Source: Podochytrium sp. JEL0797 | Lineage: Eukaryota; Chytridiomycota; Chytridiomycetes; Chytridiales; Chytriomycetaceae | Direction of reading: 5' to 3' | Length of the DNA stretch: 64,000 bases | NCBI GenBank assembly: GCA_027596195.1 | Contig: JADGJG010000014.1 | Coordinates: 1-64,000 of the forward strand | In this document: positions 16,291-61,233 of the stretch, piece by piece | How positions within the stretch are numbered: position 1 is the first letter of the stretch | Layout of the letters: every line of letters starts with the position of its first letter | The notes under the pieces: model-generated | Database searches by the model: none | What the model saw: the letters and a program-made list of their open reading frames with translations, nothing else | Told to the model about the DNA's origin: nothing | Position numbers and translations under genes: made by a program

Positions 16291-16457
16291 CGCTGTGAAA
16301 ACCCAAACCATCACCAAACCCGCGTGTGCGCATCTTAAAAATTATATACACTTCATATAATTTTGAATTTAAAAGAGCTGCCAACTTTCGTTGAGTGTCC
16401 AACACTGGTGAATGTTGTTGCGAATCCAGCACAACCACGTCGTTCATTGTCAAAGCT

Positions 16458-22922: not shown

Positions 22923-24053
22923 ATGCATCTTATCAAGCTTTCCCTTATCGCTGCTTCTATCCAGCTGATTACTGCCAGTGTTCTGCTTGGTGTCAATCAA
23001 CCCTTGAGCCGACTGGCGGAAAACTCTGCCGCTGAACCTCCCAAGGTTGGTGTCGGTGCTGGGGGAGTCGGTGAAGCCAAGAAGGTTGAAGGTGAAGCCA
23101 ACAAGGTCGGAGGTGAAGCCAGGGTTGGTGAAGGCATGAAGGTCGAAGGTGGTGGCGAAGCCAAGAAGGTCGAAGGCGGTGGTGAAGCCAGGGTTGGTGA
23201 AGGCATGAGGGTCGAAGGTGGTGGCGAAGCCAAGAAGGTCGAAGGCGGTGGTGAAGCCAAGAAGATTGAAGGAGGTGAAGCCAAGAAGGTCGAAGGTGAA
23301 GTCAGGAAGATTGAAGGAGGTGAAGTCAAGAAGGTTGAAGGTGGCGAAGCCAAGAAGGTCGAAGGCGGTGAAGCCAAGAAGGTCGAAGGTGAAGTCAGGA
23401 AGATTGAAGGTGAGGTCAGGAAGATTGAAGGTGAAGTCACGAAGATTGAAGGAGGTGGAGTCAAGAAGGTTGAAGGTGGCGAAGCCAAGAAGGTCGAAGG
23501 CGGTGGTGAAGCCAAGAAGGTCGAAGGTGGTGGTGAAGGCATGCGAGTTGAGGGAGGAGGACGTGGCCAGCAGGTTTTCGTGATCGTTCTCGAAGTCGTT
23601 CCTCGAATGCAAGTCTTCTCCTCCAACGTCGGTATCCCATTCGAACAAGGAACAGGCTGCATCCAAATGATCCTCTCTCGTATCCAAGGTCTCGGATTCA
23701 GTCGTGCAGCTAATCCCAATTCTGGCGAGACCCAAGCGCACGTCATGAGCATTATGGAAAAACTCTCGAGCGCGTCTATTCCACCCTCCGGTACATTTGA
23801 TGCAAACCAATTTACTCAAGACTTGGCTGTGGAACACGATGTTACCCCCACTGGTGTCCAGGCGATCGCTTCCACGTTGCTGGACACGATGACACTGAAC
23901 TTGGTCAGAGGCCCTGCATTTGACGCGGTGCAGGCTGTTGCGAATACCAAATTGGCATCCACGACATCAGCAGCTTCGATTATCCAAAGCAGCGCAGCTC
24001 TTGCTGGGCTTAACTCTGTTTTGGCTTTCGCGACTTTCCTCCTTACCTTTTAA
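22923..24053 (+). CDS. Secreted KVEGG-repeat protein, array member 4
   Basis: Single exon, 376 residues. The signal peptide (MHLIKLSLIAASIQLITAS) is followed almost at once by a long charged repeat region (about residues 35-215) built from EAKKVEGG, EVRKIEGG and GEARVGEGM units. The LysM-like N-terminal module of members 1 and 3 is missing. The C-terminal family domain is intact (VVPRMQVFSSNVGIPFEQG, GFSRAANPNSGETQAHV, DANQFTQDLAVEHDV) and ends in a hydrophobic tail (LNSVLAFATFLLTF). The repeat would be a highly charged, extended stalk that lifts the C-terminal domain from, or links it to, the wall. Confidence 0.78.
   Translation: MHLIKLSLIAASIQLITASVLLGVNQPLSRLAENSAAEPPKVGVGAGGVGEAKKVEGEANKVGGEARVGEGMKVEGGGEAKKVEGGGEARVGEGMRVEGGGEAKKVEGGGEAKKIEGGEAKKVEGEVRKIEGGEVKKVEGGEAKKVEGGEAKKVEGEVRKIEGEVRKIEGEVTKIEGGGVKKVEGGEAKKVEGGGEAKKVEGGGEGMRVEGGGRGQQVFVIVLEVVPRMQVFSSNVGIPFEQGTGCIQMILSRIQGLGFSRAANPNSGETQAHVMSIMEKLSSASIPPSGTFDANQFTQDLAVEHDVTPTGVQAIASTLLDTMTLNLVRGPAFDAVQAVANTKLASTTSAASIIQSSAALAGLNSVLAFATFLLTF
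23070..23555 (+). repeat. KVEGG coding repeat
   Basis: Tandem units of 24-27 bp encoding GGEAKKVE, GEVRKIE and similar words, with larger blocks repeated (for example 23140-23200 against 23190-23260). The opposite strand is also open, as an artefact of the repeat. Confidence 0.85.
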
Positions 24054-36254: not shown

Positions 36255-39200
36255 TTACATACCAATAACCACATCCGATTTTCCACCCCCGACTCTTTTC
36301 TTGCTCTGCTCCACCGCTTTTCTCCACGCAACCACAGCCATAGCCATAAAGTAAATCTTGCGCGCCTTGTCCACATTCGCATCCACTCGCGCCTTCAAAG
36401 TCTTCTTGGCAACACGCGTCTGCAGCTCCTCTTTTCTTGAACGAGTCGGGTAAAGCTTGACAGTCAACTCGAAGGACCAGTTGCGGATAATCTGGACCTT
36501 GACGATATCCAAGAGCATGAACATGATCGTCGAGACAGCAATCACAGACACACCCCACGCCCATCCAATAGCAGTTGCGTCAAGGTCCCGAATTCCAAAG
36601 ATGGCCATGAACATGGCAAAGACTTGGGTTCCAGCAACGGCGAGAATGAAGCTCCAAGAGGGCGCGTTTTCGTAAAAGTATCCGGGGAGACGGGTCGAGA
36701 AAATGACAAAGTGAGGGCACGAAGAGATCTGGAGGTACATGATGGTCTGCAAGACTCCAGAGTTGGGAAGGTCGGGAGCGTCGTCGTAAGAGTCAATGGG
36801 GTATCCAAACGCGTAGTGAGCGACAAAGAAGTGGGCCCAAGAGATCAACATGAGGAGGAACCCGAGCACGAAGGACCCGAGCACGAAGGAAAGGACATTG
36901 TGATGAGTTGGCCGAGACGCCATTGTTGGCCGAGACGCCACTTGTCGGGGCGCTGGGAGATCTGGGCGTTGTCGACTGAAATGACGAGCGTGGCGACATC
37001 GTTGAGGACGGCAATCATGAGGATAAGTCTTGGTGGGAGAGAGAACCCATACGTGCAGATGGAGAGGAAGAAGAACAACAAGAAGTGGATGGTGGAAAGT
37101 GGATGGTCGAGGCGATACGGTAAAGAGCGTAGGATCTCATTCTCTGGAAAATGGCACGGGAAGTCTTGACACCGTCAACAATGGTGGAGAGACCGGCAGC
37201 GAGCAAGACAATATCGGCGGCAGAACGAGCAGCATCGGTACAACCCTCGACAGCGATACCAACGTTGGCCTTCTTGAGGGCAGGAGCGTCGTTCACACCG
37301 TCTCCAGTCATACCAACAAGGAATCCGCGCTTCTGGAGCAACTCAACAACACGGTACTTGTGCTCGGGAGTAACCTGGGCGACACAACACGGAACTTGTG
37401 CTCAGGAGTAACCTGCGCAAATCCGTCACACTTGACACACCGATCAATGAGAGCCGCTTCATCCAAAGTAGGGTCGTTGAGCTTGTTGGCATCCAAGATG
37501 GTGCGGTTCATTCCGAGACGATGGGCCACCTCTTTGCCAATAATCTGCTGGTCACCCGTAATCATCTTGACATCGAGTCCGAGCTTGTGGCACTCTTGGA
37601 TGGTGTGGGCAGAGTCTGGACGCGGTGGGTCGACGAGAGAGATCATTCCAATCATTTCAAAGACTTGCATCTCCTCGTCGATGGTGCGAGAAGAGTCGCT
37701 TCGTCGTGTCCTCCAACCATGCGAACAATGACCTGGGGAGCACCCTTGATGCAACGGAACTGCTTTCCAGTAGAGAGGTCGGTGACAGTGGCTTCGGTGT
37801 ACTTGGAGTTGGGGTTGAAGGGGATGAAGTTGGTAGAGAGGTCGGTGACAGTGGCTTCGGTGTACTTGGAGTTGGGGTTGAAGGGGATGAAGTTGCTTCG
37901 GTGTACTTGGAGTTGGGGTTGAAACCTTGTAGCCGGGGATGTGGTGGTCTTGGGTCTCGCGGTTCTTGAGGAGCTCGACGCGTTCTTGGGAGGCGGCACG
38001 GACGGCGGATTCGATGGGGTCTTGTGCACCAGGCTCGGAAGCAAAGAAAGAGGCCAAGAGGAGATCCTGGTCAGTGTACTGGACTCCGGTTCCCTCAAAG
38101 TCGTGGCTTGTCGAAGGAGAGCTGGTTAAGAGTGAGAGTTCCGGTCTTGTCGGAGCAGAGAATGGAGACGGACGCAAGCTCCTCAATGGCTGTGGCAGTG
38201 AGACGCTTGACAATGACTTCCTTCTTGGCGAGCTGGGAAAGCACACATGGTAACGGACATGATGGTGGGGAGACCGACGGGGATAGCGGCGATGGTCAAG
38301 ATGATCCATGAGAGATTCCTTACGCTCTCCGAGCGGGTCGTTGGGCTTAGCGGGAACAGCCCAGGTACGAACGAAGAAGAGGACAATGGCCATAACCTGG
38401 AAAAAAAGTCGATTGATTAGATAAGGACATATCGAACAACTAGGCAATCAGCTTACACAAGTAACAACGACCAAAAAGTTTCCGATGGCGTTGATAATCT
38501 TCTGGAAGTGACCCTCCTCGGTAGTGATGGAGATCAAGTTGGCAGCGCGACCAATGTAGGTGTTGATTCCAGTCTTGGTGACAACGGCAAGCATCTGACC
38601 TTGCTTGACGATGGCTGATGAGTAAGCAGTGACACCCTTGCCCTTGGCAACAGGGAGCGACTCGCCGGTAAGAGCAGACTGGTCAATCTGGAGAGTTCCC
38701 TCCGACATTTCACCCGTGACACCCACACCCAAAAGACGACAGTCGGCAGGGATAATGTCTCCAAGACGAAGCGCAACAATGTCACCAGGAACGAGGGTGT
38801 TGGAGTCCACCTCGACGAGCTTGCCGTTTCTCCAAACGCGGGACTTTTGAGCGAGCGTGTTCTTGAGCGCGTCCAAGGCAGACTCGGCACGAGCCTCCTC
38901 AAAGAATCCGATACAGGCATTGATGATGAGCACACCCAACAAGATACCAAAATCAATCCAGTCCTCAAAGATTCCAGAAAGAATACAAGCGATTTCGAGA
39001 AGGTACGAGATGGGTCCGAGGAAGTACGAGAGGAACTTGAGGAACGGGTTGGTCTTCGTCTCGGGGATTTCGTTGAGACCGAACTGGGCCGTGCGTTCAG
39101 TGACTTGGGCGTCGGTGAGACCTTCGAGTGGCTCGGTGTGGAGAAGGGCCTCCAACTCGGGCGAAATGTCGTCCTCGACTTCGACATGGACAGCCTCCTC

Positions 39201-39322
39201 CATCTTCACCGGCTTCTTGCCATTGGCGTTCAACTCGTGTTTCTCTGTTCACATTGCGGCGGGCAGTTAGTACAGTGATTCATGGAATGTAAGCGACGAG
39301 GGCAGCAGTCACCTTCGTGCAT
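36255..39322 (-). CDS. PMA1: PMA-type plasma-membrane H+-ATPase, copy A (frame-broken)
   Basis: Exons 39322-39313 (only ATGCACGAAG), 39244-38457 and 38396-36255. Exon 2 is intact, from [20 protein letters not shown] through the TGES motif ([13 protein letters not shown]) to the next membrane helix. The C-terminal part has [19 protein letters not shown] and six predicted helices. Between them the frame breaks repeatedly: about 5 bp lost after KESLM; about 7 bp lost plus one T gained after VTM; single bases missing around FDKP; a deletion followed by two exact copies of a roughly 63-bp block at 37780-37925; a duplicated roughly 35-bp block near 37350-37420; and an 11-bp duplication near 37090. 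P3A-type ATPases pump protons out and energise nutrient uptake. As written this copy cannot make a full protein; consensus error is possible. Confidence 0.8.
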
Positions 39323-40474
39323 GGATGCGTTCGAACGATCGGAGAAAGACGGCTGGTTTTTTGAGTCTTTTGTGATCCAGAACTGATCCAGTCCGGGTAT
39401 TTATCCACCTTTTTGCCGTCACACCCGCGGGAAATTTTTGACAGGAAAGCGTGTCGCGTTTTTGAACCCTCTGATACCTCTTGTCAATTGAGCCTCTTTC
39501 CAAAACCGATCGGCGCTCTCTACCATGAATGAAACTCCAGTTTCCGATTGAATATATGATTATATCAGACAAATGCGTAGTCAATGTTATCCATCTCGGA
39601 AAATTGATTCCAATTAATCAAAACCCAAATTGGATTTTTTTTCGCCATTCTCATCACTTTTCAAATCCACTGGATTATTTAGTCACTCGCATTGAGAGAG
39701 TTTCAATACTGGAGTATTCCTTTCTCTATGGGAAAGTGTTTCCCTTCTTTGGCTCTCTACAAGCCCCCGATTTCAATTCCTGCAATCACCACGGAGATGG
39801 ATCGCCTGTGCCGGGGCATGCGCCTTTCAGCCCCCTCAAGACCGAAAATATTCCGACAAAGCGCGTGCCTGCGCGCGTGCACACGCGGGCAAAGGGTGAT
39901 TTCTTACAAGAGTGCCCCTAAGAGTGCCCCCCCTCCTCCTCAAAAAAAATCTTATCACGTCCTTCTTAATCTTTACGACTAAAATTGGAATCGCCAGAGA
40001 AATCACGGTTTGAATCACACACGAAAGCGAACCTCCTTTCCTGGTCCCGAGTTGGGGGATATATAGAAGCAGCGCGCGCTTTTTTTGAGTTGGCGAGACA
40101 GGTGTGGCGTCCTGTTCGTCGTCTCAGGTTGTTTCGCTTCCGTTTTTGCGTGAGGGATCCTATTTCCTAAACAATTTCTGCAAACGCTGCAGTGAAAATG
40201 GAGGGATGGGTGCTCGATGGGTTAGAATCCAATGGATGCAATTCAAAGTGTGATACTGGAAAAAGAGTTCCGTCCAAAAGTGTAATTGTAGCCGCCGAGA
40301 AAAAAAGTCATTTCCAATACGAAATACGTCTCCGAAACAGCATTTTAATTTCGCAAACAAACAAAGAGGCAAACAAAAAAGAAACAACATGAGAGAGAAA
40401 GAGAGAAAAATACCAAAGAGACACATTAATATTCCCCCAACAACAACAAAAATCTAAAAAGTCAAAACACCCCC
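39323..40474. other. Long intergenic region upstream of ATPase copy A
   Basis: About 1.15 kb without a credible gene. It should contain the promoter of copy A (minus strand) and the 3' flank of copy B. An AGAGTGCCCC word is directly repeated at about 39908-39930, and a TATATA-like element lies near 40060. Nothing else was recognised. Confidence 0.4.
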
Positions 40475-43400
40475 TCAGTTCATATCAACCGCACTCTCCA
40501 CAGCCCCACCACCACCCCTCTTCTTCTTCCCCTCCACAGCCTTCCTCCACGCAACAACTCCAAGCGTCATGTAATAAATCTTGCGCGCCTTCAAAATATT
40601 CGCATCCACTCGCGCCTTCAAGACCTTCTTGACCTGACGCACCGCAAGCTCCTCCTTCCTCGCACGAGTCGGGTAAAGCTTGACAGTCAACTCAAACGAC
40701 CAGTTGCGGATAATCTGAACCTTGACGATATCCAACAACATGAACATGACCGTCGAAATGGCAAGCACGGAAATTCCCCATCCCCATCCAATCGCAGTGG
40801 CATCCAATCCACGGATTCCAAACACGGACATGAACATGGCAAACACTTGCGTACCAGCAACAGCGAGGATAAACACCCACGACGGCGAGTTTTCGTAAAA
40901 GTATCCGGGGAGACGGGTCGAGAAAATGACAAAGTGAGGGCACGACGAAATCTGGAGGTACATGATGGTCTGCAAGACTCCAGAGTTGGGAAGGTCGGGA
41001 GCGTCGTCGTAAGAGTCAATGGGGTATCCAAACGCGTAGTGAGCGACAAAGAAGTGGGCCCAAGAGATCAACATGAGGAGGAACCCGAGCACGAAGGAAA
41101 GGACATTGTGATGAGTTGGCCGAGACGCCATTGTTGGCCGAGACGCCACTTGTCGGGGCGCTGGGAGATCTGGGCGTTGTCGACTGAAATGACGAGCGTG
41201 GCGACATCGTTGAGGACGGCAATCATGAGGATAAGTCTTGGTGGGAGAGAGAACCCATACGTGCAGATGGAGAGGAAGAAGAACAACAAGAAGTGGATGG
41301 TGGAAGCGATACGGTAGAGCGCGTAGGATCTCATTCTCTGGAAAATGGCACGCGAGCACTTGAGATACCGTCAACGATGGTGGAGAGACCGGCAGCAAGC
41401 AAGACGATATCAGCAGCAGAACGAGCAGCGTCGGTACAACCCTCGACGGCGATACCGACGTTGGCCTTCTTGAGAGCGGGAGCGTCATTCACACCATCAC
41501 CAGTCATACCAACGAGGTAACCACGTTTCCACAACACGGAACTTGTGCTCAGGAGTAACCTGCGCAAATCCGTCACACTTGACACACCGATCAATGAGAG
41601 CCGCTTCATCCAAAGTAGGGTCGTTGAGCTTGTTGGCATCCAAGATGGTGCGGTTCATTCCGAGACGATGGGCCACCTCTTTGCCAATAATCTGCTGGTC
41701 ACCCGTAATCATCTTGACATCGAGTCCGAGCTTGTGGCACTCTTGGATGGTGTGGGCAGAGTCTGGACGCGGTGGGTCGACGAGAGAGATCATTCCAATC
41801 ATTTCAAAGACTTGCATCTCCTCGTCGATGGTGCGAGAAGAGTCGCTTCGTCGTGTCCTCCAACCATGCGAACAATGACCTGGGGAGCACCCTTGATGCA
41901 ACGGAACTGCTTTCCAGTAGAGAGGTCGGTGACAGTGGCTTCGGTGTACTTGGAGTTGGGGTTGAAGGGGATGAAGTTGCTTCGGTGTACTTGGAGTTGG
42001 GGTTGAAACCTTGTAGCCGGGGATGTGGTGGTCTTGGGTCTCGCGGTTCTTGAGGAGCTCGACGCGTTCTTGGGAAGCGGCACGGACGGCGGATTCGATG
42101 GGGTCTTGTGCACCAGGCTCGGACGCAAAGAAAGAGGCCAAGAGGAGATCCTGGTCAGTGTACTGGACTCCGGTTCCCTCAAAGTCGTGGCTTGTCGAAG
42201 GAGAGCTGGTTAAGAGTGAGAGTTCCGGTCTTGTCGGAGCAGAGAATGGAGACGGACGCAAGCTCCTCAATGGCTGTGGCAGTGAGACGCTTGACAATGA
42301 GGAGACGGACGCAAGCTCCTCAATGGCTGTGGCAGTGAGACGCTTGACAATGACTTCCTTCTTGGCGAGCTGGGAAAGCACCGACGGCCATGGTAACGGA
42401 CATGATGGTGGGGAGACCGACGGGGATAGCGGCGATGGTCAAGATGATCCATGAGAGATTCCTTACGCTCTCCGAGCGGGTCGTTGGGCTTAGCGGGAAC
42501 AGCCCAGGTACGAACGAAGAAGAGGACAATGGCCATAACCTGGAAAAAAAGTCGATTGATTAGATAAGGACATATCGAACAACTAGGCAATCAGCTTACA
42601 CAAGTAACAACGACCAAAAAGTTTCCGATGGCGTTGATAATCTTCTGGAAGTGACCCTCCTCGGTAGTGATGGAGATCAAGTTGGCTCCAATGAAAGTGT
42701 TGATACCGGTCTTGGTGACTTGGTGACGACGGAACGGCGAGCATCTGGCCTTGCTTGCTTCACGATGGCAGAGGAGTACGCAGTAACACCCTTGCCCTTG
42801 GCGACGGGAAGCGACTCGCCGGTAAGAGCAGACTGGTCAATCTGGAGAGTTCCCTCCGATTCTTCACCTGTGACACCGATGCCAAGAAGACGGCAATCGG
42901 CGGGGATAATGTCTCCGAGACGAAGGGCAACAATGTCTCCGGGGACAAGGGTGTTGGACTCGACTTCGACGAGCTTTCCGTTTCTCCAGACACGCGAGCG
43001 GAGGGCAAGAGTGTTCTTGAGGGCGTCCAAGGCAGACTCGGCACGAGCCTCCTCAAAGAATCCAATGCACGCGTTGGCAATGAGGACAAACAGAAGAATC
43101 CCAAAGTCAATCCACTCCTCAAACACGCCCGAGAGAATACACGCGATTTCGAGGAGGTACGAGATGGGTCCGAGGAAGTACGAGAGGAACTTGAGGAGCG
43201 GGTTGGTCTTGGTCTCGGGGATTTCGTTCAGACCAAACTTGGCCGTGCGCTCAGTGACCTGGGCATCCGTGAGACCTTCGAGGGGAGGGGTGTGGAGAAG
43301 GGCTTCGAGCTCGGGGGAGATATCGTCGGCAACCTCGACGTGGACAGCCTCCTCCATCTTCAACGGCTTCTTGCCATCGGCGTTGAGTTCTTCTTTCTCT

Positions 43401-43918
43401 GAGTGGCGGAAATGGATATGTGATTAATAAATTTGTAACAAAAGGTGTGATTGGGAGTGGAGATTGAGCGCCAAGATTTTTCATTCAGCCGCCAGGCCCA
43501 AATGAATTCCCAAAAAAGAACAGACGAGTGCTGCCTGGCGGGGCGCTGAGGGGGTATAGTGCGGGGTGTGGGATGTACGAGGAGAGAGCGAGGGAGCGAG
43601 GTGATGTGATGTGGGGGCTGAGCCTGGGAATGGATCCAATTGGCTGGCGGCGATAACGCTTCGTGTCAAGTTCTTCGCACGCCCCGCGAAACGCATCCCA
43701 GCACTCACTGCGGGAACCAGAGGCCAATGGTCATGACACGGAACCAGAAGGGACTCTGAAACACGGCCCCGTGACCGCGCGATAAGATCGCTTGTCCGCG
43801 CGCACATGGATGAATTCCCGCAGCCGTGCATTGCAGTGGGAGCACAGAAGAGAGGAAGGTGAAGGAGGGCCGGTGCTGCAGCGGAGGGGATGTGGGGCAA
43901 TGGCTCACCTTCGTGCAT
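40475..43918 (-). CDS. PMA1: PMA-type plasma-membrane H+-ATPase, copy B (frame-broken)
   Basis: Exons 43918-43909, 43398-42600 and 42539-40475. Intron 1 is 510 bp, against about 54-68 bp in copies A and C. Exon 2 starts well ([33 protein letters not shown]) and then shows small tandem duplications of about 4, 5 and 8 bp near 42705-42760. Exon 3 has a 53-bp perfect tandem duplication (42248-42300 and 42301-42353) next to the DKTG phosphorylation motif. It also has the same breaks around FDKP and GYKV as copy A, an 11-bp loss near 41527 and a 2-bp gain near 41370. The C-terminal membrane domain is intact. Copy B lies in tandem with copy A and shares much of its sequence; it cannot encode a full pump as written. 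Confidence 0.8.
42248..42353. repeat. 53-bp perfect tandem duplication in ATPase copy B
   Basis: Two identical adjacent 53-bp copies (42248-42300 and 42301-42353) covering the codons for KRLTA...EELAS, just before the DKTG motif. Absent from copies A and C. Confidence 0.9.
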
Positions 43919-44471
43919 TTTGGTTTGAAGCAAGAAGTTGGGGGAAGAAAAAGAAGTGGCGATTTTTTGATGGATCCTTTTGTGGTCGGCGAGGACGGAA
44001 AATTTAATTTGTCACCAAGTCGTGCCTCATTTCCAATCCATTCGGAATCAAATGTCAACGGAACCAGCGTGGGAACGCGAGGAATGCGATGCCAGGTGTG
44101 GTGTAAGGTGTATCTTATCACACGCTGGATGAATGAATGAAAACAGTCTCCAGGTGTTGGTGATTCCACGTGGGTGGCGATAGATAAGCTGTGCCTTCGT
44201 CATTTCCAACGTTACAAATGCGCATTTGAAACATTCACACACACTGGTGGTGTGGGGACCATGCTCAGACTCTCGCGCAATCAATGAGCCCCCACAGCCC
44301 CCGCAGCCCCTTCAAGAATTATCTGTGATATCCATGCAATCACAAGTCAGGTTCAAAATTCGCACAAGCATCAGTGTTCGCCACTTGGCAAGCTGATTGA
44401 ATCGATCCAAGGAAAGGGCTTCTCCATGAGACAATATTCACTTCTATATCTTTTAATAAATATTAAATAAC
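43919..44471. other. Intergenic region upstream of ATPase copy B
   Basis: No gene recognised. It presumably contains the copy B promoter and the 3' flank of the villin-like gene. Confidence 0.4.
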
Positions 44472-47400
44472 TCAACTATCCAAACCACTCCTCCACCCAT
44501 GAAACAACCCCTGAAACTCCGCCCCCTCCCCCCCCTCCCACACAACCACCACCCCATCCACAACCCCTTCCCCAGAAGCCATCTCCCCTTCCCACTTTCT
44601 CCTCCCATCCTCCAAAGTCTCCAACCACACTTCCACCGCTTTCCGCGCAAGCTTCTCAACCACAAACGACGCACTCGCCCCAATCCAGAGGTACACGGGC
44701 GAATGCGGACCCGGGTCCAAAATCGCGCAGGTATCGCGGTCTAAACTCGATTGATCGAAAAACGGCACTTCCTCCACGCAGAAGTATCCTTTCGCACACG
44801 AACACACGAGTAACCGCGGTAAATTCGTGGGAATCACGCTGGTTGCGGTGGGTGGATCGAGCGGGGACGGTTTGACCAAGATGGGTGGCATGGGTCCCGT
44901 TGCGTAGGGTTGTTTGCCGTTGGGGAAGAGGCTGAAGAAGGCGCGGGGTTCGAGGGGTTCGGTGATGATGCGGTATCGTGGCGGGGGTGCAGTTGATTTG
45001 GAATCCAATGCAACCTCTTTGAGCGCGGTGGAATCGTCGGAAACAGCCGCACCATGCGTAGGAGAATGAAGCGACGTATCACTCGTAGCACTCGCCGCAA
45101 CCGGTCCATCAGATCCCATCTGCGTCAAATGAAAACTCGATATCCGATCCGCAATCGCCACAGCCCTCCTCGCATCTTCACTCGTTGAATTCTTGCCCGT
45201 CCACAGAAACCCAACTCCAGGATCACTCCGAACCTTGTGCACAAAGAAGCAATCGCGACTAATCAGCCTCTCGCACGCACAAGGGACTTGAATCGCTCTG
45301 GTAGTTTTGAACTTCCAATCCGTCCGAATGTGATACAACACACTCTCGCCTTCGCCTCCGGCAGACAGACGCGCCAAAAGGTCCTTTCGAGACCCCCGAT
45401 GAATCACACTCCGATTCCCCCAATGCGCCAACAACTCCAACGGTTCTCTCTCCTGCACAACCTGCACAATTTGCACAGAAGAGCCATAAATCTCTTGCAC
45501 CGCATCCTGAAGCTCCTGCCTTGCATGAAACCGAAACGTCTTCTCCGCAACCCCAGAACACTGCTTCCCCACCCAAAAGTAAATCACACACGCCGTCTCC
45601 ACCACATCCTTACCCCCCCTCCTCCCTTTCGACCCCCTCGCAGCACCATCATCCCGCGACAAACTCCCACAACTCTTTACCACCGGATACGCATTCCCAC
45701 CGACCCGAAACGCCTCATCCGCCCCCGCCGCACTCATCACCTTCAACGCCCGATTCATTGCCTCCGTCACATCCCCCTCCCCCCCTCTCCCCACCTCCCC
45801 CGCACCAGTCGAATAAACCGCTAAAAACGCATACCTCCCCTCCCCACACAAATGCACACCCCCTCTCTCAACCCCTTCCAACCCCACAAACCGGCCCTTC
45901 TCAAAAGCAAACGCTCGAAACTCAACAACCCGTGAATTCACCTCCTCCATCATCTTCAACCCCTGCAGAAACCGATTCATCCCCACCACCACGCGGGTCG
46001 GACTCTCCAACAGCGGATGCGGCGCATACAGAGCTCCAACGTCTACTTTCACGGGAGTCAGCCGCACGTTTCTCCTCGCCGCGATCCGCAGCGTTTCCGT
46101 GCGCGGTTCGATCCAATCCGCGAAATAGAGCTTAAACGGTTCAGGTTCATTGAACTGCGTGATGCGTTCGAGGTTGAGAAATGAGGGACGCTGCGGGTGC
46201 GCGAGGATCACACGGGCAAGGGTTTCGGAGGCGGAGAGTTTTTCGGTGGGAAGGGATTTGGCGCCGATCCAGAGATAAATGGAGGTGTGGGTGTCGAGAA
46301 TGTAGCAGTGGTGCGGGGAGAGGAGGGTGCGGTGGAATCCAGTGTTGTTTTCTGGTGTTTTTTTTGAGTTTGTTGTTTTGATGACTGATTGGAGGCGGGA
46401 ATGAAACAACAAATGAACACACCTTCGGTTGCAACCACCAAGTTGGCTACGTCTATAGGGGTATCTTGAACCTTGGTATCTTCCGTCGAAGGGACTTTGT
46501 AAAGCGTCGCAGGGGGTTGACTCGCTTCCCTCGCGTCTGCATCAGTTGCATCCGCCTCATCGATTTCGGGCAACAGCTCATCCAACTTTTCACAAACCTC
46601 TCCCTCATCTAAAAAACAACCTCAAAATCAGAAAAAAAACGCTCCCAACTCACTCCCAAAAAAATGACCTACCAATCTCTACCACCTCCGCCTTCCCCGC
46701 CCTCTCCACCCCCTTCATCACATCCACAAGAATCCGGCACTTTGCCCTCACTGTAAGACAAGACCCCGCCCCATTCCACTGCACCATCGCATACCCGGCA
46801 TCCACCAAAAACACATTCCCCGTCTCCAAACTCCTCTTCACAGGCCTCACGACCTCCATCCTCACCCTCCCCCCCTTCCCGACTCCCGCCACCCGATACA
46901 CCTTGACAGCCCCCCACCTCCTCCGTTCCGCAACAAACAATCCACTTTCAGCTGCAAAGCTCGGGTCATCATATCCCACCTCACCCTCAAACAACTCCAC
47001 AAAAGCCTCCGTCTCCTCCCCCTGCGTATGCCGCACAACACTTTCTCCAACCCCAAGCAGGTTTTTGACCCCTACCGCAAACATGGCGCAACAGAACCGT
47101 TTGTCCATTTCGGAGAGCGGGCCGATCCAGGTGTGGATGGTGTGGATGAGGTGCGTTGTAGAGAGAGGTTCGGTGGGGTCTTCTGCGATATCGAGATTGT
47201 TGTAGTGTTGGAGGTGGGGGGAATCGGTGGTGGTTGAAATGATGACATAACAGTCTGCGATGCAAAAATGGCCGTGCTTTGAATCGTGTAAAAAGAAACC
47301 AATCAGCACAACAACGATTCGATTGTACCAAAACAATCACTCACTTCTTCAGGCTCCACAATCTCAGGCCGCATATTCTCAATCCGAAACACAACCACCC

Positions 47401-48426
47401 CTTCCTGCTTGTTATGTGCCAGAAAATCAGACGGAAACAAGTCACTGAGATCGACATTCGAGATTTGCGGGGCGGAGGATGGGGTTGCTTTGGAGGTTGG
47501 TTTGAGGTGGGTGGGTGGCGTTGTGGACGGGATGGGGAGGGCAATGTTGATGGATGTGAGGGAGGATCGAGACGTTCGTTTCTGGAATAGTTTTGAAGTG
47601 GGAAAGGGGTGTGTTTGATACGTCAGTTTGAGATTCGGATGGTGTTGTGGTGCCTTTGCGGGGGGCGATTCGCGACTTTGATCCAAATTTCGAAGGCCTC
47701 CGCGATTCTAACGCCAAATCCATTCGACAGCATCCGATCCAATTCGCATTATTCAACCACAGCAATCTGAACATCATTTCGAATTGGTTGCCCCTCTCAG
47801 ATGAAATACTCACATTCGCCTTCGAATCCCTCCCCTCCTCCCCCTCTCCCCCCTCCTCCCTCGCAGCCCCAAACACAGCCAACGAGTTCAACGCCTCAAT
47901 AAACACCAACCCATGCTTGGTCGTTTCCAAATCGAGTGTTCCATTCTTGTTGGAAGCCGAGAGACGGTTCGAAGTCGGAGGATTCAGGGTTTGGATGTTG
48001 GGGTTGTGCGGGGAGGTGGTGAGGTTGGGTGCGGGTTTGGGGTTTGCGTTGGAGAAGTCTGCGTTGTAGAAGTCGTTGGGGTGGATCACGGAGGGGCGGT
48101 GAGATGGCGTGTTGAGGTGTGATGAGGTGGTCGAGGATGGCAGCAAGTGGGCAGCGTGGGACAGCGAGGGGGTCTAGGAGGGTGGTGTCGTTAGGGACCA
48201 AGAGGAGAGAGAGAGAGAGGAGTAAACGCACCGTGATCTTCTGCGAAAGACGCCTCGTCACCCGTTGCGCGGAATCAGCCCTTAAGCGAGTGAATTGGGC
48301 GGGGTCCTCCTGCGCAGGAGAAGACAAGTCATCGCCACTGCCAAGCGATGAAAAGAAGGCTGCAACGCGTTTGCTGAGGTTGCCAACCGCAGTGTTTCGG
48401 CGCTGCCGCGGCGACGGCGTTTCCAT
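44472..48426 (-). CDS. Villin/gelsolin-like actin-binding protein
   Basis: Six exons (48426-48232, 48173-47622, 47581-47345, 47276-46673, 46608-46423, 46351-44472) splice in frame to about 1,200 residues. Gelsolin-repeat hallmarks are ILDTHTSIYLWIGAKS, then VIYFWVGKQCS, FFVHKVRSDPGVGFLWTGKN and ILDPGPHSPVYLWIGASAS, spaced as separate repeats. The N-terminal 250 residues are basic and Ser/Pro-rich with a folded segment (NGTLDLETTKHGLVFIEALN), possibly PH-like. No villin headpiece is present at the C-terminus. Gelsolin-family proteins sever, cap or bundle actin filaments. The number of intact repeats (at least four) and calcium sites need alignment. Confidence in the family is good and in subtype is low. 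Confidence 0.8.
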
Positions 48427-48589
48427 TGTTCGGTTTTTTTTGGAATCTGAGAAATGAACAAAAAATGGTAAGTTTATTAGTTATGGCCGGCAGTCGGTCG
48501 AATTTAATAGGATTTGGCAGTGTATTAGGTATTGCTAGCTTAATAGATGGCGTGGCCAAGCTGAAAATGAAGGAGGTGTTGCCAATTCT

Positions 48590-48790
48590 TGCGGCTGAAA
48601 AGTACCCGCTCCTAACCCGCGGCAATAAAAGCTGCTACCGCTGGTGGGAAGGACTCAAAGAAAGCCGAAAAGAAAAAGGGCGACGCTGCTGAAAAGTACT
48701 GTAACAAAATGCCCCGAAGAATGCAGCCGCTGCAAAGAAAGCAGCAGCGGCGGGACAAAGAAAAAAGATGAGATCGAAATTCGATTTCCA
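48590..48790 (+). pseudogene. Relic of an Ala/Lys-rich protein gene
   Basis: Stretches reading KAATAGGKDSKKAEKKKGDA and NAPKNAAAAKKAAAAG appear in broken frame. They strongly resemble the Ala/Lys repeats of the intact gene at 49052-49612, so this is probably a decayed copy of it. Confidence 0.5.
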
Positions 48791-49051
48791 TCATATGCCT
48801 CCACCAGGTTTGTGAGATGCGGTTCTAATCAGAGTTCAAATGAGAGATTTGCACTCAATTTTCCTTTCCAGCGGATTCGACTTCAACTGTCACATTCCAT
48901 CAGTCCAGCATCAATCGCGGCAGAAAATTATATGTAGTACTCATTTTCTCATGAGCCAGCAACGAGATTTCAACTCTTAATCAGTTCTAGGAGTATAAGA
49001 AGTTGTCCCCTCCCCATCCAAGCCACAACTCAACACCCAACAACCAAACAA

Positions 49052-49612
49052 ATGCACTTCTCCAAGCACTTCTCCGACAAATTCTTTGCCTGCTCCTTGC
49101 TCATCGCGGCTTCTTGTCTCGCAGCTCCAGTTCCAGCTGCTCAAAATGCAGTTGACATGTCCGCTCAAACCCGAGGCGCGACTGCTGCTGTTGCCAATGT
49201 TCAAACTATGATGGCTGCAGTCGCAAAGTCTACTGCTACTGTCCAACAAGCGGCCAACACAAGCTCTGCGGTTGCTGCCAAGCCAACAGCCGCAAAGGCG
49301 GTGGCTGCCACTCCAACGGCGACGAATGCTGCCGATGCCAAGAAGGCCAAGAAAGCCGCGAAAAAAGCGGCAGCGGCAATGAAAGCTGCTGTCAAGAAGG
49401 CTTCTGTTGCCGCGAAAGCGGCGACTGCGACTTCTCCTGCCGCCACAAAGGCAGCTGGTGCCGGAAATGCTACCACTACTGCTACAAAGAAGGCGGCGGT
49501 TGCAAATGCTACAACTGTTGCAAAGAAGGCTTCTGCCACAAATTCTGCCACTTCTACAAAGAAAGCTTCCGTGGTCACAAATGCCGGAGGAATAACTATC
49601 ATCAACGTTTGA
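49052..49612 (+). CDS. Secreted Ala/Lys/Thr-rich protein
   Basis: A 186-residue single-exon protein with a signal peptide (DKFFACSLLIAASCLAAPVP). The mature part is almost wholly Ala, Lys, Thr and Val (KKAKKAAKKAAAAMKAAVKK, TKKAAVANATTVAKKASATN), which resembles a lysine-rich, histone-H1-like helical repeat. It ends GGITIINV without an anchor. Likely secreted and strongly cationic. A role in wall or polyanion binding, or an antimicrobial role, is only a guess. A decayed copy lies just upstream. Confidence 0.65.
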   Translation: MHFSKHFSDKFFACSLLIAASCLAAPVPAAQNAVDMSAQTRGATAAVANVQTMMAAVAKSTATVQQAANTSSAVAAKPTAAKAVAATPTATNAADAKKAKKAAKKAAAAMKAAVKKASVAAKAATATSPAATKAAGAGNATTTATKKAAVANATTVAKKASATNSATSTKKASVVTNAGGITIINV

Positions 49613-49724
49613 ACCTTTTTAGTTCTTGCTTTAATTTTTATATCTTTTGCATCTGTACTTTCTGCATTCAAAATATAAACGCGTTGGAAAAAATAGTTTG
49701 ATTTGTCACTTTGGTTTGTCAATT

Positions 49725-51903
49725 ATGAAACCTCCACACAAGCAGTTCCCTTCCGTCCCATCACCAAAGACAGTACGCTTCCGCCGCAGGATATGCATTC
49801 TCTTTGCAATATGGATACTGATAGCGTGGATCTGGTTCTGGTGGTCGCCTCCTGATTTAAAGTATCAATTGCGGCCAATAGAAGTTTCGACGGGCCGTAT
49901 GCATCAGAGACCAAATAGCAAACCGTTAGTCCAAACTGTGACGGTCACAGTAACCGAAACCATCATCCAAACACCCTCTCCGACACGCATCAGCCAGTTT
50001 GACACTCCACCACATGTCAAACAAATCACCGATCCCCATTACCTCGCGTTCTCCTCCGCCATCCTCAAATCCAACACTCCAGCCCACTCTTACATTCCCA
50101 AAATCCCACATTTTATCCTCCGAACCTGGAAAACCTCATCCCGCAGCGAAATCCTGACCCCAACCACCAACACATCTTCCGTCCCCGCGTGGTTCACATC
50201 GTGGGACACCCTGAACCCGACACATGTGCAAATCGTTTTTTCAGACGCAGATTCGGATCGATTCGTTCAAGGATTTTTCTCTCCCTGGGTTGTCGAAGCT
50301 TACTTTCGGCTTCCGCGGGTGGTGATGCGAAGCGATTTGGCGCGATATCTGATGCTTTATGAGATTGGCGGGACTTATACAGATATGGATACCGAGTGCT
50401 TGAAGCCGATTTATCAATGGACAAAGGGCGAGAAGAACGTTGGCATGTTTGTCGGTGTCGAGGTACCATCCGTCGGAACGGAATTCGATCATTGATAACT
50501 CATTCTCCCAGAATGCCCGAGGAAACAAAGACAATATTAACCAATGGACTATTGGATCTGCGCGTCATCACCCGCTCATGGCACTCGTGATCCATCGCGT
50601 AGTGACAAAGATTCATTCGTGCACAGACGACGAATTGAAGGACACACAGCAGTTGCTGTACATCACAGGTCCAGGAATTTGGAAGCCAGCAGTGCATGAT
50701 TATTTAGCGGAGCGCGGTGCAAGAGTGGAGGAGGTTTCGTTTTTATGGGACGAGTATCGAATGTTTGGTAATACTCATGCAGTGTCTTGAATCATCTGAA
50801 TTCATTAGTTGTTCAGATGACGTGATGCTGGTTGGTAAAACCCTACTCAGTCCGTTGAACGCGTACAACCCGAAAGCGCTGTCCATCCACTATGGCACCG
50901 GCAAGATGAGTGGAGGTTGGAAAACAATCAATGATACTTCGTCTCTCTATATTCCCAATCACTTGGATTCACTTGCAGTCGCCCGCGAATTTCACGAAGA
51001 GGAAACCACGTTTGTCGAACCTCGACTCACCGAGGAGATTTCGAAATCCATTCCCCATAGTTCTCCAATCACTCAGATCCCAAAGCAAATTGCTCAAGTG
51101 TATTATACGTCAGACACATCCGTCCTTTCCGAACCATATCGCAGAATCCACCAAACCTGGCAAACCCTCAACCCCAAACACACTTACACCTTATTCGACG
51201 ACATCAAAATGGACGCGTACGTTCGCTCCGAATGCACCGAACTAGAAAAGAGAGTCTATTTCAAAACAGGGCTGTTGCATCAGAAGGTTGCTGTCTTCAA
51301 AATTTTGTGGTTGCTGAAAACAGGCGGCGTGTTTGTCGATTTGGACACGGAATGCATACATCCGATCGACCAATGGAAACTTGGAAGAGATGGTGTTAAT
51401 CTCATGATTGGAATGCAGGTATTCATCTTAATTATGCTCGTCTCAGCCCGAATATTTAATGCAAAAAATCACAATCCCAGTCCCAGACCACCAACCAATC
51501 CCTTCCCATTCTCGCCACCCACACTCTCCTCTCCATCCCAAACCACCCCCTCTTAAAATCCTACTTCAAAACCCTCCAAACCTTCATCCTCTCAAAATCC
51601 AAAAAGCAACTCCGCGCAACACTCCCCTACACCCTCCTCCACCACACCTGGTTCGAATCACACATCTACACCTACCTCCAGACCCGCGGAAAAATCGAAT
51701 TAGAAACTGAAATCCCGCGTTTGTCGTGGGAATCCGTGATCCAAGTGGAGGATGTGGTGGTGCTGGGGCAAGCACATTTTCGGCCGGATGATTTGGATCG
51801 AGAGTTGTCGCTTGTCAAGAATCATGATTGGTTGTGGCATCGCGAGAGGACGTGGAGTGTTGGGTGGCCTGAATTGGAACCTCCGGAACCTTCATTTCTT
51901 TAA
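49725..51903 (+). CDS. Tandem double GT32 glycosyltransferase (OCH1-like)
   Basis: Four exons (49725-50462, 50522-50767, 50817-51418, 51481-51903), about 670 residues. A short basic cytosolic tail and one membrane helix (ICILFAIWILIAWIWFWWS) give type II Golgi topology. Catalytic domain 1 has IPHFILRTWKTS, then RSDLARYLMLYEIGGTYTDM with the DXD motif in DMDTECLKPI, and ends HYGTGKMSGGWK. Domain 2 repeats the order: IAQVYYTSDT, YRRIHQTWQTLNPKHTY, LLKTGGVFVDLDTECIHPI with a second DXD, and a C-terminal part (SLPILATHTLLSIPNHPLL). GT32 enzymes such as Och1 transfer mannose from GDP-mannose to glycans. Two full domains in one chain is unusual. Confidence 0.8.
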
Positions 51904-52606
51904 GATCTTGGTCATGTAGTTATTTACGCGACTCCCCGGCTACGGCTTAACATAAAGCTTTGATATTCTGGTTGCCATCTTTGGAATCAGTGCTATCGGC
52001 GAAAGAAAAGGGCTGGAGATATGGAATTAATTTCGTAGATTGATATCAACCACTTTGATCAAATGCTTTGGAAATAAACAACTAGAAATTATATTTCGCC
52101 GTAAATCAATTCTTCTTCTCTCTTTGTTCTCACGTCGCCGCTTTTTGCAAGTTCAGCGGAACTCGAATGTGCGCCACAGGGTCCAACTTCTGATTGTTTT
52201 CGTTTGAGTCGATAGTAAGTTGGAGGCTGATCTCGTTTACAACCGAAACGGCGATTATGACGCATGCAGTGGGGTTCAAATCTGCACAAATCGAAACAAA
52301 TCATGACTTCAACGGACTGGAAGCGCACGTAAGACTTGTGCTCTTGGTCTCAATGATCGCGTTTAGATCGCCTGGTTTCGTGCCTGACCTCAGATCACGC
52401 AGCCGCAATATTAACGAGTCATATGGAGTTGGCAAGCATGAAATCAAGCCAGAAAATTGAACTCTACGCTTGGAGGGTGGCACCGCTGGACTTTAATGTT
52501 CAATCCCGGGCGGAATTGCATATATAAAACGGCGACAGTGGCTGTCATCCCCAAAACATCACAACTTCAATCATATCATCAATACCCGCCATCACTCTCC
52601 GCCAAA
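51904..52606. other. Intergenic region upstream of ATPase copy C
   Basis: No gene recognised across about 700 bp. The downstream half should be the promoter of ATPase copy C. Confidence 0.4.
52519..52530 (+). promoter_or_regulatory. TATA box candidate for ATPase copy C
   Basis: CATATATAAAAC lies about 80 bp upstream of the copy C start codon, a normal distance for a strongly expressed fungal gene. Confidence 0.5.
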
Positions 52607-55551
52607 ATGCATGAAGGTAACCTCGACACCAAACTTACTGACAACCGCGAATTCTAAATCCTTGCCATAGAGAAACATGAGTCCCACGCCGACAAAAAGC
52701 CATTGAAGATGGAGGAAGCTGTTCACGTCGAAGTCGAGGACGACATTTCGCCCGAGCTGGAAGCCCTTCTCCACACAGAGCCACTCGAGGGTCTTACCGA
52801 CGCTGAGGTCGCCGCGCGCACCCTCCAGTTCGGTCTCAACGAAATCCCCGAGTCCAAGAGCAACCCTCTCCTCAAGTTCCTTTCCTACTTCCTCGGACCC
52901 ATCTCATACCTCCTCGAAATTGCCTGTATTCTCTCTGGAGTCTTCCACGAGTGGATCGACTTCGGTATCCTCCTCTTCGTCTTGATTGCCAACGCCTGTA
53001 TCGGATTCTTTGAGGAGGCTCGTGCCGAGTCTGCCTTGGACGCGCTCAAGAACACTCTCGCTCAAAAGTCCCGCGTTTGGAGAAACGGCAAGCTCGTCGA
53101 GGTGGACTCCAACACCCTCGTTCCTGGTGACATTGTTGCGCTTCGTCTTGGAGACATTATCCCTGCCGACTGTCGTCTTTTGGGTGTGGGTGTCACGGGT
53201 GAAATGTCGGAGGGAACTCTCCAGATTGACCAGTCTGCTCTTACCGGCGAGTCGCTCCCTGTTGCCAAGGGCAAGGGTGTCACTGCTTACTCATCAGCCA
53301 TCGTCAAGCAAGGTCAGATGCTTGCCGTTGTCACCAAGACTGGAATCAACACCTACATTGGTCGCGCTGCCAACTTGATCTCCATCACTACCGAGGAGGG
53401 TCACTTCCAGAAGATTATCAACGCCATCGGAAACTTTTTGGTCGTTGTTACTTGTGTAAGCTGATTGCCTAGTTGTTCGATATGTCCTTATCTAATCAAT
53501 CGACTTTTTTTCCAGGTTATGGCCATTGTCCTCTTCTTCGTTCGTACCTGGGCTGTTCCCGCTAAGCCCAACGACCCGCTCGGAGAGCGTAAGGAATCTC
53601 TCATGGAAGTCCTCGTCTTGACTATTGCCGCCATCCCAGTCGGTCTCCCTACCATCATGTCCCATGGCCGTCGGTGCTTCCCAGCTCGCCAAGAAGGAAG
53701 TCATCGTCAAGCGTCTCACAGCCATTGAAAGAACTCGCGTCCGTCTCCATTCTCTGCTCTGACAAGACTGGCACGTTGACTCTCACTCTTAACCAGCTCT
53801 CCTTCGACAAGCCACGACTTTGAGGGAACCGGAGTCCAGTACACTGACCAGGATCTCCTCTTGGCCTCTTTCTTTGCGTCCGAGCCCGGTGCACAAGACC
53901 CCATTGAATCTGCCGTCCGTGCCGCCTCCCAAGAACGCGTCGAGTTGCTCAAGAACCGTGAGAACCAGGACCACCACATTCCCGGATACAAGGTTTCAAC
54001 CCCAACTCCAAGTACACCGAAGCCACTGTTACCGACTTGTTGACTGGGAAGCAGTTCCGTTGCCCACCGTCACCGACCTCACCACTGGAAAGCAGTTCCG
54101 CTGCATCAAGGGAGCTCCCCAGGTCATTGTCAACATGGTTGGAGGACACGATGAAGCCACCGCTGCTGTCAACGACCTCGCTCGTCGCGGTCTCCGTGCT
54201 CTTGGAGTCGCTCGCACCATTGACGCTGAGATGCAAGTCTTTGAAATGATTGGAATGATCTCCCTCGTCGACCCTCCCCGTCCCGACTCCGCCCACACGA
54301 TCCAGGAGTGCCACAAACTCGGACTCGATGTCAAGATGATTACTGGTGACCAACAGATTATCGGAAAGGAAGTTGCCCACCGTCTCGGAATGAACCGTAC
54401 TATTTTGGATGCCAACAAGCTCAACGACCCCACTTTGGACGAGGAGGCCCTTATTGACCGTTGTGTCAAGTGTGACGGTTTTGCTCAAGTTACCCCTGAG
54501 CACAAGTTCCGTGTTGTGGAGCTTCTCCAGAAGCGCGGTTACCTTGTTGGTATGACTGGTGATGGTGTGAACGATGCTCCTCAAGAAGGCCAACGTTGGT
54601 ATCGCTGTCGAAGGCTGCACTGACGCTGCTCGTTCCGCTGCCGATATTGTCTTGCTCGCTGCCGGTCTCTCCACCATTGTTGACGGTATCAAGTGCTCCC
54701 GTGCTATTTTCCAGAGAATGAGATCCTACGCTCTCTACCGTATCGCCTCGACCATCCACTTCTTGCTCTTCTTCTTCTTGTCCATCTGTACCTACGGTTT
54801 CTCCCTCCCACCCAGACTTATTCTCATGATTGCCGTGTTGAACGACGTCGCTACTCTCGTTATTTCGGTCGACAACGCCCAGATCTCCCAGCGCCCCGAC
54901 AAGTGGCGTCTTGGACAGCTCATCACCATGTCTTTCGTTCTCGGGTTCCTCCTCATGTTGATCTCCTGGGCTCACTTCTTTGTCGGTCACTACGCGTTTG
55001 GACTCACGACTGTGGATTACAAGGACGATCCTACTGTTCCCAACGCGGGAGTCTTGCAGACCATCATGTACCTCCAAATCTCGTCTTGCCCACACTTTGT
55101 CATCTTCTCAACGCGTCTCCCTGGATACTTTTACGAAAACGCTCCCTCGTGGACCTTCATTATTGCTGTTGCGGGGACCCAAGTCATTGCCATGTTCATG
55201 GCCATGTTTGGAGTCCGCGAGCTCGACGCCACCGCCATCGGCTGGAAATGGGCCTGTGCCGTCATTGCCATCTCTACCCTCATGTTCATGCTTCTCGACA
55301 TTGTCAAGGTCTGGATGTTCCGCATCTGGTCGTTCGAACTCACTGTCAAGTTGTACCCGACCGCTTCCCGCAAGGAGGAGTTGGAGACCCGTGTTGCCAA
55401 GAGGATTGTCAAGGCGCGTGTGTACGCCAACATTGAGAAGTTGAGAAAGGTGTACTACATGTCGATGGCTGTGGTTGCTTTTGAGAAGGCTGTGGCTGCG
55501 CGCAAGAAGACTGCGAGAGCGGGTGCTTCGACCACCACTTTGGACATGTAG
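52607..55551 (+). CDS. PMA1: PMA-type plasma-membrane H+-ATPase, copy C (frame-broken)
   Basis: Exons 52607-52616 (ATGCATGAAG), 52671-53455 and 53516-55551. The N-terminal cytosolic and membrane parts with [13 protein letters not shown], and the C-terminal part from [20 protein letters not shown] to the last helix, are intact. The breaks in between are: 5 bp missing after GLPTIMS (near 53660); 1 bp gained near 53728; an in-frame 6-bp gain just after DKTGTLTL; single bases missing around FDKP (near 53815); a diverged roughly 41-bp tandem block near 54020-54105 encoding two versions of TVTDL-TGKQFRC; and 5 bp missing inside the GDGVNDAP motif (near 54581). Without these, the protein would be a standard P3A proton pump. 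Whether the breaks are real is unclear. Confidence 0.8.
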
Positions 55552-58504: not shown

Positions 58505-60598
58505 TCAAACCAACAGCGAAACCATGACCACAAACAAGAGCGCAATATTCTCGGACTTGATTCCTCCCGACTTTTTCGAAGTCGCTTTCGGAGAGGACGA
58601 GGTTGTTTTGGCACCGTACTTGGTTGGCGACAGTTTGTAGCCTGAAGGGACCGGAATTGAGTTTGTGACTGTCATCGAGGGTTGAACTGGTCCCGATGAA
58701 TTATCAGGCTGAGATGGATTCGCAGGCATCTCCATCGAACCAGTCATGGGTGGATGCGGGTTTCCTGGCACAAAAGTCTGCGACGGAATCGAAGGGGGCT
58801 GATTTGATGCAGGCATGGTTGGAAGGGGGCCGCTGGGTGGAAACAAATCAGTCGGGGATGGAATTTCAGGAGGGCCATTAGAACTGGCCGTTGGCACACG
58901 AGCGATTGGCTTTGACGGCGTTGGAGAATGATGTGGCGAATTGGAATTTGGGGATTTCGGAAGAGGTGGCGGATTGGTGTTGGATGGAAGAGGAATTCGT
59001 GAATTTGATGAAGCTGGGGGAACAATTGGTGGGGATGCAGATGTGTGCATTGGGGCGATTGGGGGTGATGAACGAGGAGTTGGTATAGTCTCTGAGGATT
59101 GAGAAATTGGTGCTGGAGTGATCGGACAATTCGGACTGTTGCCATTTGTGCAAATCGGAATCGGGATTACTGGTGACGGGAGGGGAACGATCGAAGCTGA
59201 TGAAACTATTGTTGGAGCTGTTGTAAATGGCACCGGAGGTACAGTCGCGGAGGACATGGATATATGGGTGTGGGTTACGACAGGAGGTCCCGTGGATGCT
59301 GCCGTTGACGCGTTCGGTACCTTCGGGATGGACGGGGGTTCAGGGGAAGGAGCGGGAATATTCGGGTTGTTTGTAATATGAGCTACATGTGTATGCATGC
59401 TAACATGTGGGGAAATGGCAGGAGGTCCACCGGATGGAGCCGTTGGCGCGTTCGGTGCAGTTGCTAGTTTTTTCGTACGCACAAGTGGAATCGGAAATTT
59501 TGTTTTGGGAGATGGAGGGATTATTGTAGATCCAGGTGGTGCGGGTGGAACATCAGGTGAAGTTATAATTGAAGGCCGTGTTGGTGAACCCGCTTCGGTT
59601 GTTACGGGTGAGATTGGCTGCGTAACTGTTGATGACGGTGTACTTGAAGGATTTGTACCAGGTGTCGACAAAATTATTGGTTGGGTTGATGAGGCGAAGG
59701 AGGGGACAATTGGAGGTTCAATAATCCGAGAGCCGAGTGGCGTTGTTGCGACTGGAATCGGACACACTTTTGGCGGCGTCGTCAGTGGTTCCGGTGAAGA
59801 AGCCGGAAAACCGGCAGGAACCGTAGAGGATGTGATTGGAAGCGGCAATGGTGTTGGCGAAGGAGGGGCCAGTGTGGTCGGAGATAACCCAGGAGCCATC
59901 GGGACAATTGGAAGCAGAGGTGACACTCGGTCGGGTGCAGTAGGAATGGGTAGCTCTGGGGAATCCGGAGAAAGCGACTCCTTGCATGTCGTAGTAGGAG
60001 AAGGAGCAGCTGGGCTTGAAGGACATGCGGGCCCATCGCAGGAAGGGCAAGAGTATCCCGACACACACGCGGGACAACACAGCTGCTGAAGGGGACAAAG
60101 TATCAGAATCACGTTATTTAATTAGTTTCTGTTTAAAATCCAAGAAATCAATACCTTGGATGCTCCACACCTTGAATCGTTTTCGTAACACAGCCCACCA
60201 GTCGCCTGATTTCCGAGATACGTGATTTCCAGAATTTCGATATTTGGACCTCCATAGGCGCCCGGGCTGATGGTAACAGTTCCAATGGTGTTTCCAGTCA
60301 CCGGGCACGGGCAGCTGATAATAAACTCGCCGAATTCCGCAACCGAATCCGGTGTGAACGCCAGCGTTTCACCATTATGCGCACAACTCACAGTTAAATA
60401 TGTGACTGCAAACTCGGGTTGGTAGCCAAACGCCCCATATTCTGAAACGGTCACTTGAATCTGCATTTCGGCGGAGTCAAGAGCCCAGAACATGCCAGGC
60501 GAGATGAGCCGGAATGCACCACCTTCGAACGGTTGGGTCGTAGCATCACAACGTATCTGGCAATAAGTCTGGGTTGGGCTGCATCCATGAGTCGCCAT
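58505..60598 (-). CDS. Cys-rich, Pro/Ser-rich mucin-like surface protein 1
   Basis: Two exons (60598-about 60158 and about 60091-58505), about 676 residues. The N-terminal domain (GMFWALDSAEMQIQVTVSEY, GPNIEILEITYLGNQATGGL) is a predicted beta-sandwich shared with the next gene. A cysteine block follows (QLCCPACVSGYSCPSCDGPA), then about 480 residues of Pro/Ser/Thr-rich sequence that should be heavily O-glycosylated. The end is a basic segment plus a hydrophobic tail (NIALLFVVMVSLLV), suited to a GPI anchor or tail anchor. There is no N-terminal signal peptide at the only good ATG, which is odd for such a protein; an unseen upstream exon is possible. Probable cell-wall or surface protein. Confidence 0.65.
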
Positions 60599-61233
60599 TT
60601 TGAAAACGAATATATAACGTGTAATTCATGCGTTTCCACCCATTTGGATTATCATGATAGAACGAATGCAGTCCAAAATGTGTTGATTCATTTAACTGCT
60701 TGGCGGGTGATTGCCGGACAGTAATGGGAATTTTTCTTTTATGAATTATTCGCGCCGTTTCATCGAATATGAACAAATTCCCCCCTCCCCGGGAGCCTCT
60801 GCTATGCCGAGCGTACAAGTCCCTGTTTTGTTTCTGTTGTAGTTTTTTGAATCATCGTCTGCGAATTCGATTTGTTCGACTTTTGTCTGACTTTTGTCCG
60901 AGATTATTCATCGATAAACAGATTGAGTCCAGGGATGCCCAAAGAGCACCGCAAAAGAAAGTACCGCATTTATTGTGTGATGAATTGCCCTAGCGCTTCC
61001 TTTATGGGAAGCGCCATTTCATCACACCTTGACAAGGTCCCGCGACCGAGTTGCCGGGTGTGAGTGTGCGGGCAGACGTTCTTCGGTCGCACCTGAGAAA
61101 TTGCAATCCCTTACAGTCGGAGCAAAGTCCTATTATAGCATATATTTCAATCTTCAAAATCAACAGAAGAGCGAATAAAAAAAATAATGCATTCAAAAAA
61201 TAATCGTTAAAATGGATGAGAAGAATTAAAAGA
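60599..61233. other. Intergenic region with a hairpin
   Basis: No gene seen. It contains the imperfect palindrome at 60975-61026 described separately. Confidence 0.4.
60975..61026. repeat. Imperfect inverted repeat (hairpin)
   Basis: The arms TGTGATGAA and GCGCTTCC on the left pair with GGAAGCGC and TTCATCACA on the right, with small unpaired bulges and a TTTAT-type loop. The whole is about 52 bp. Confidence 0.75.

Follow-up and report, generated by a model that had tools for sequence, protein, structure and literature searches.

Frame-broken plasma-membrane H+-ATPase genes of Podochytrium sp. JEL0797 very likely reflect an assembly artefact within a real, partly homogenised tandem family

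The window analyzed here comprises bases 1–64,000 of contig C46 (103,091 bp) in the assembly of the chytrid Podochytrium sp. JEL0797 (G000; 24.4 Mb in 995 contigs), and it contains three copies of a plasma-membrane H+-ATPase gene, each with open ends and a broken center. Copy A occupies 36255..39233 on the minus strand (HDU98_002101; P0017, 824 aa), copy B 40475..43427 on the minus strand (HDU98_002102; P0025, 844 aa), and copy C 52658..55551 on the plus strand (HDU98_002105; P0001, 881 aa). A fourth copy, D (HDU98_002109; C46:65186-68090, L029), lies just past the window and is broken like the other three. From the assembled sequence we infer strongly, although short of proof, that the breaks are in all likelihood an assembly artefact in a tandem pump family that is itself real and partly homogenised, and that the damage most likely calls for a corrected sequence and does not amount to a biological finding.

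The first exon of A best matches the solved structures 1mhs (E 1.3e-59), the Neurospora enzyme, and 7vh5 (E 1.3e-55), which places the genes with the Pma1-type fungal plasma-membrane H+-ATPases. A motif scan of A, B, and C finds TGES, DKTG, FDKP, GYKV, and GDGVND legible in each copy but spread over different frames, and the three motifs by which we recognize the P-type IIIA ATPase class (TGES, DKTG, and GDGVND) are present piecewise. Four Podochytrium pump gene models in the protein database map onto A–D, and in a protein search with a read-through query of C the three top scorers are proteins of Podochytrium sp. JEL0797 (taxid 2724200, Chytridiomycota), followed by Rhizoclosmatium, Entophlyctis, and Chytriomyces at 79–81% identity along the entire query.

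A search of the genome yields at least ten pump loci (A–J). A continuous frame of ~920–950 codons is found in none of A–D, while E, on contig C227, is open over 947 codons across two exons and serves as the intact reference. G, on C875, is open as far as the contig end, H and I lie at opposite ends of C966, and J lies at the start of C986. Fragment F (C227:18831-20600; L033, L034) consists of a first exon and the start of an intron followed by unrelated sequence, and represents either a copy cut short or the product of a wrong join. The annotation adds an eleventh pump, HDU98_000123 (P0002, 947 aa), whose contig measures 9,878 bases, a length that none of the contigs with pump matches examined here has. 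Compared with known fungal pumps, the published sequences of A–D are thus frame-broken, while E and P0002 are whole.

The damage is confined to one part of the gene. Scored against E, with intron-length rows excluded, the exons of the four copies show 29 frame-breaking indel rows (8 in A, 11 in B, and 5 each in C and D), a number that depends on the alignment, as one complex break may yield two rows. All of them fall within residues ~200–745, and the sole exon indel found beyond these limits in the columns examined is an in-frame loss of 3 bases that C and D have close to their N-terminus. When in-frame indels are included and introns left aside, residues 200–745 hold 40 indel places (12, 14, 7, and 7 in A–D). 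The original prediction, that A, B, and C have clean ends and a center filled with indels, is therefore borne out, as is its statement that certain breaks are identical in all three copies. The 29-bp loss after FDKP (38104..38105 on the minus strand in A) has an identical junction at 42188 in B and 53814 in C, and the GYKV break, after which the sequence re-starts (37922..37923 on the minus strand in A), has an identical left junction at 42006 in B and 53996 in C; both recur in D (C46:66335 and C46:66517, respectively).

The sizes of the indels differ somewhat from those predicted. Losses had been given as 1–16 bp, a range that proves too small in view of the 29-bp loss common to all copies and of a 46-bp loss in A (37690..37691, minus strand), likewise present in B at 41837, where the match to E is 100% on the left and 82% on the right. 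Smaller losses are found in B, where 11 bp are missing before GDGVNDAP (41529..41530, minus strand) at the point where sequence in common with A and D gives way to B's own, and in C, whose GDGVNDAP region (54558..54580, plus strand) lacks 5 bp. For the duplications, the predicted upper limit of 63 bp holds, while the lower limit of 4 bp does not, sizes across the copies being 2–63 bp. The longest are perfect tandem duplications of 63 bp in A (37770..37895, minus strand) and of 53 bp in B (42248..42353, minus strand), the latter directly before the DKTG segment.

The duplications in the pump genes are more than chance would give. Contig C46 contains seven perfect tandem duplications (unit of 12–150 bp, not of low complexity), three of which, including the two longest (53 and 63 bp), are within its 11.7 kb of pump sequence; the other four are outside the pumps, one having a 39-bp unit. 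The other 65 kb of contigs examined contain a single one (16 bp, on C227, outside the pumps), the background being 168 kb in total, picked for pumps or other duplicates and not at random.

Introns do not account for the breaks, because only one intron of A–D has a counterpart at that place in E and G. This is a 60-nt GT...AG intron, identical in the four copies (38397..38456 on the minus strand in A, 42540-42599 in B, 53456-53515 in C, and C46:65973-66032 in D) and different in sequence from the introns of E and G. Losses cannot be introns at all, and the other stretches skipped by the public models sit at breaks.

The damaged center is also the part in which the copies are nearly identical. 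A and B differ by 13.2% over residues 20–264 and by 15.2% over 760–930, compared with 0.7% over 266–425 and 3.1% over 455–740. In the C-terminal part A, B, C, and D mutually differ by 10–27%, although C and D are only 0.7% apart in the N-terminal exon; the ends of D resemble C, and its center is partly A/B-like. The longest exact tracts among A–D reach 551 bp (A–C) and 450 bp (A–B), whereas no other pair of the ten loci exceeds 66 bp, apart from A–E and B–E at 142 bp. The copies that have no long shared tracts keep open frames, as seen for E, for G to the contig end, and for HDU98_000123.

Many of the breaks coincide with a change of source within this mosaic. A source switch was scored where some neighboring copy is 100% identical across the 45-base flank of one side and drops by 5% or more across the opposite flank, and 20 of the 40 indel places pass this test, as against 15% of background positions. 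Moreover, the paired units of several duplications differ as two paralogues do. At the 19-bp duplication of D, C matches 100% to the left and A/B 100% to the right, the two units being different versions. In the 38-bp duplication of A (37345..37418, minus strand), the first unit (37383-37418) has exact counterparts in B and D; the second (37345-37380) is on C46 found in A alone. The first unit of the 14-bp duplication of A (37083..37111, minus strand) is the C version and the second that of B and D, and the duplicated overlap after GYKV in C (54024..54104, plus strand), with the same arrangement in D (C46:66545-66625), comprises two divergent units of ~40 bp.

Despite 5–11 frame-breaking rows in each, A–D were under coding constraint. 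No internal stop occurs in the codons that align to the frame of E (914 in A, 907 in B, 925 in C, and 926 in D), a count in which inserted bases were left unread and in which three apparent stops turn out to be the first and last codons. The A–C differences in the center fall predominantly at third codon positions (19 of 23 and 76 of 92).

We propose the following course of events. The true genome very probably contains several working pump genes in tandem, and the true copies would be intact. We think that part of the near-identity of A–D is real, and that this is what misled the assembler. Because the middles of the pumps are nearly identical, the assembler would have made few shared fragments and reused them in several copies. 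Where fragment ends were set head to tail and their overlap left unmerged, duplications would result, with units possibly from two paralogues, and where fragments were joined with a piece omitted, losses would result. The gene caller would then have spanned the breaks by short false introns. The divergent duplicate units are what would be expected if two contig ends that overlap were placed one after the other, while slippage would give identical units and homologous exchange should be seamless, with no duplication. Sequencing reads would be expected to contradict the joins, and the exact step at which the assembler failed is likewise inferred. A neighboring pair of genes on C46 (~84.9 and 86.3 kb), 84% identical, serves as a control, each member having an open frame of 251 codons. 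The original prediction had named badly joined, near-identical paralogues as the likeliest cause, and the mosaic of shared tracts, the divergent duplicate units, the lack of any trace of relaxed selection, and the intact copies elsewhere all support it.

Several observations weigh against an assembly artefact. Half of the 40 indel places (20) show no source switch by the above criterion, nor do the places count as independent of one another, since some junctions are common to several copies. True gene conversion, too, would produce long stretches of identity among linked copies. Near-identity alone is not always damaging in this assembly, because two HSP70 genes on C224 have ~3.4 kb of identical core sequence and yet are unbroken in frame; HSP70 was considered as a second damaged family and rejected on this ground, which speaks slightly against a blanket effect. 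A second pair of neighbors on C46 (~77.4 and 79.1 kb, 80% identical), taken as a further control, gave no recognizable matching pair of open frames. The pump contig ends are without long exact repeats, with 30 bp at the right end of C875 and 47 bp at the left end of C986, and both ends of C966 show no exact repeat of at least 15 bp among the sequences compared here. The typical de Bruijn signature, contig ends with one fixed exact overlap, was thus not found at these ends, and apparent 399-bp matches between contig ends proved to be ends matching themselves. Finally, four contig ends lie in pump genes (C875 right, both of C966, and C986 left) compared with ~1.6 expected by our own calculation from 19.4 kb of pump sequence and an assembly of 24.4 Mb in 995 contigs, an excess that we do not find convincing.

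A related artefact, in which the interleaved sequences are the haplotypes of a heterozygous genome instead of paralogues, is unlikely. Near-identical blocks do stand side by side elsewhere in the assembly, on C224 (6 kb, 99.0%) and C840 (3 kb, 97.6%), and false duplication arising from haplotypes is well documented (PMC9516828). The C-terminal divergence among A–D is, however, large for alleles, even if the N-terminal exons of C and D are close enough.

We have also considered that the breaks are real, i.e., that ectopic recombination among the tandem pumps, or template switching between them, has recently produced mosaic, frame-broken copies while E, G, and HDU98_000123 sustain the cell. The linked copies A–D indeed share longer identical tracts than the dispersed ones, source switches occur at half of the indel places, and the intact copies elsewhere would make the loss tolerable. 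A recent burst of template switching between paralogues, itself a very improbable event here, would have made mosaics of four genes and left microhomology-type scars in one and the same domain of each, with unlinked copies keeping the proton gradient. On the other hand, homologous exchange should, on general grounds, leave no seams, the four copies would have had to break too fast to gather a single nonsense codon or to diverge under relaxed constraint, and two of the breaks recur unchanged in each copy. We therefore consider this explanation very unlikely; if true, it would be a natural instance of error-prone gene conversion over a tandem array.

Ordinary decay after duplication is more than doubtful. 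Frame breaks exist, as pseudogenes require, but the absence of internal nonsense in the aligned codons and the dominance of third-position differences are not those of relaxed selection, and the lesions consist of indels only and are restricted to the homogenised center.

The public models of A–D link the pieces of each gene by skipping stretches of 14–160 nt located at the breaks, which could be taken as a sign that real breaks are repaired in RNA by unusual introns, editing, or frameshifting; this is hardly credible, since the 29- and 46-base losses, judged against E and G, remove codons that are absent there from the DNA of the copies, some of the skips are only 14, 19, and 28 nt, which we judge too short for introns, and DKTG is found in none of the four models and GDGVND in neither that of C nor that of D, while P0002 has both. 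The hotspot with three dead pumps or RNA-level repair that the original prediction offered as its alternative is accordingly weakened, with 29 and 46 bases missing and four copies that would have been broken very recently and in part identically.

Preferring misassembly, we note that the faulty sequence has now entered the public protein databases, where HDU98_002101, 002102, 002105, and 002109 stand without the catalytic DKTG and with pieces skipped as introns. Comparisons of pump number, intron gain, or pump loss in chytrids would therefore be misled wherever they draw on these models. The signature described here, namely duplications with divergent units at switches between paralogues, no nonsense codons, and a preserved third-position bias, may be used as a screen that needs no reads. 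By the titles listed, a literature search for Podochytrium and JEL0797 found no paper about this genome.

Contig ends misassembled in tandem are a published type of error, described for version 1 of the Vibrio fischeri ES114 genome (PMC2330054). As described there, the added sequence closely resembled its neighbor, conserved genes were frame-broken, and contig ends that had not been overlapped were blamed, which is similar to the present case; the added pieces, however, were of 318–1264 bp and lay in unique DNA, whereas here the duplications are of 2–63 bp, accompanied by losses, and involve near-identical paralogues. According to PMC9516828, false duplications abound in the older vertebrate assemblies studied there, affecting 4–16% of those assemblies. 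These are likewise false gene structures made by assembler errors, but, unlike the pumps, they stem mainly from haplotypes.

Some other duplicated genes are worth recording. The two HSP70 copies on C224 (58001-64000 and 68501-74500; L040, L041) are 10.5 kb apart. Their sequences agree at every base for 3,360 bp (58713-62072), introns as well as exons, and diverge on either side; the identity could come from a repeated fragment used twice or from gene conversion. The C840 block (5633-8667 and 8658-11694; L042) is a recent tandem block.

An F-box/LRR-type gene at 14500-16500 of the window (minus strand), placed by its LRR-like motifs and named as damaged in the original prediction, belongs to a large family. 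Elsewhere in the genome, the best of its long matches reach 64–74% identity, and because it has no near-identical relative, a mis-join between paralogues is inapplicable to it, so that its breaks, if real, need another cause. An F-box family search gave no match on C46 and two equal-score matches on C723 (near 35.1 and 43.4 kb) that may form another recent tandem block.

Tandem repeats of coding size lie within long open frames at 61631-62015 (141/72-bp units) and 23070-23532 (24/27-bp units) of the window. At 49647-51556 on the plus strand, two adjoining Gly_transf_sug frames constitute either a tandem pair or two exons of a single gene.

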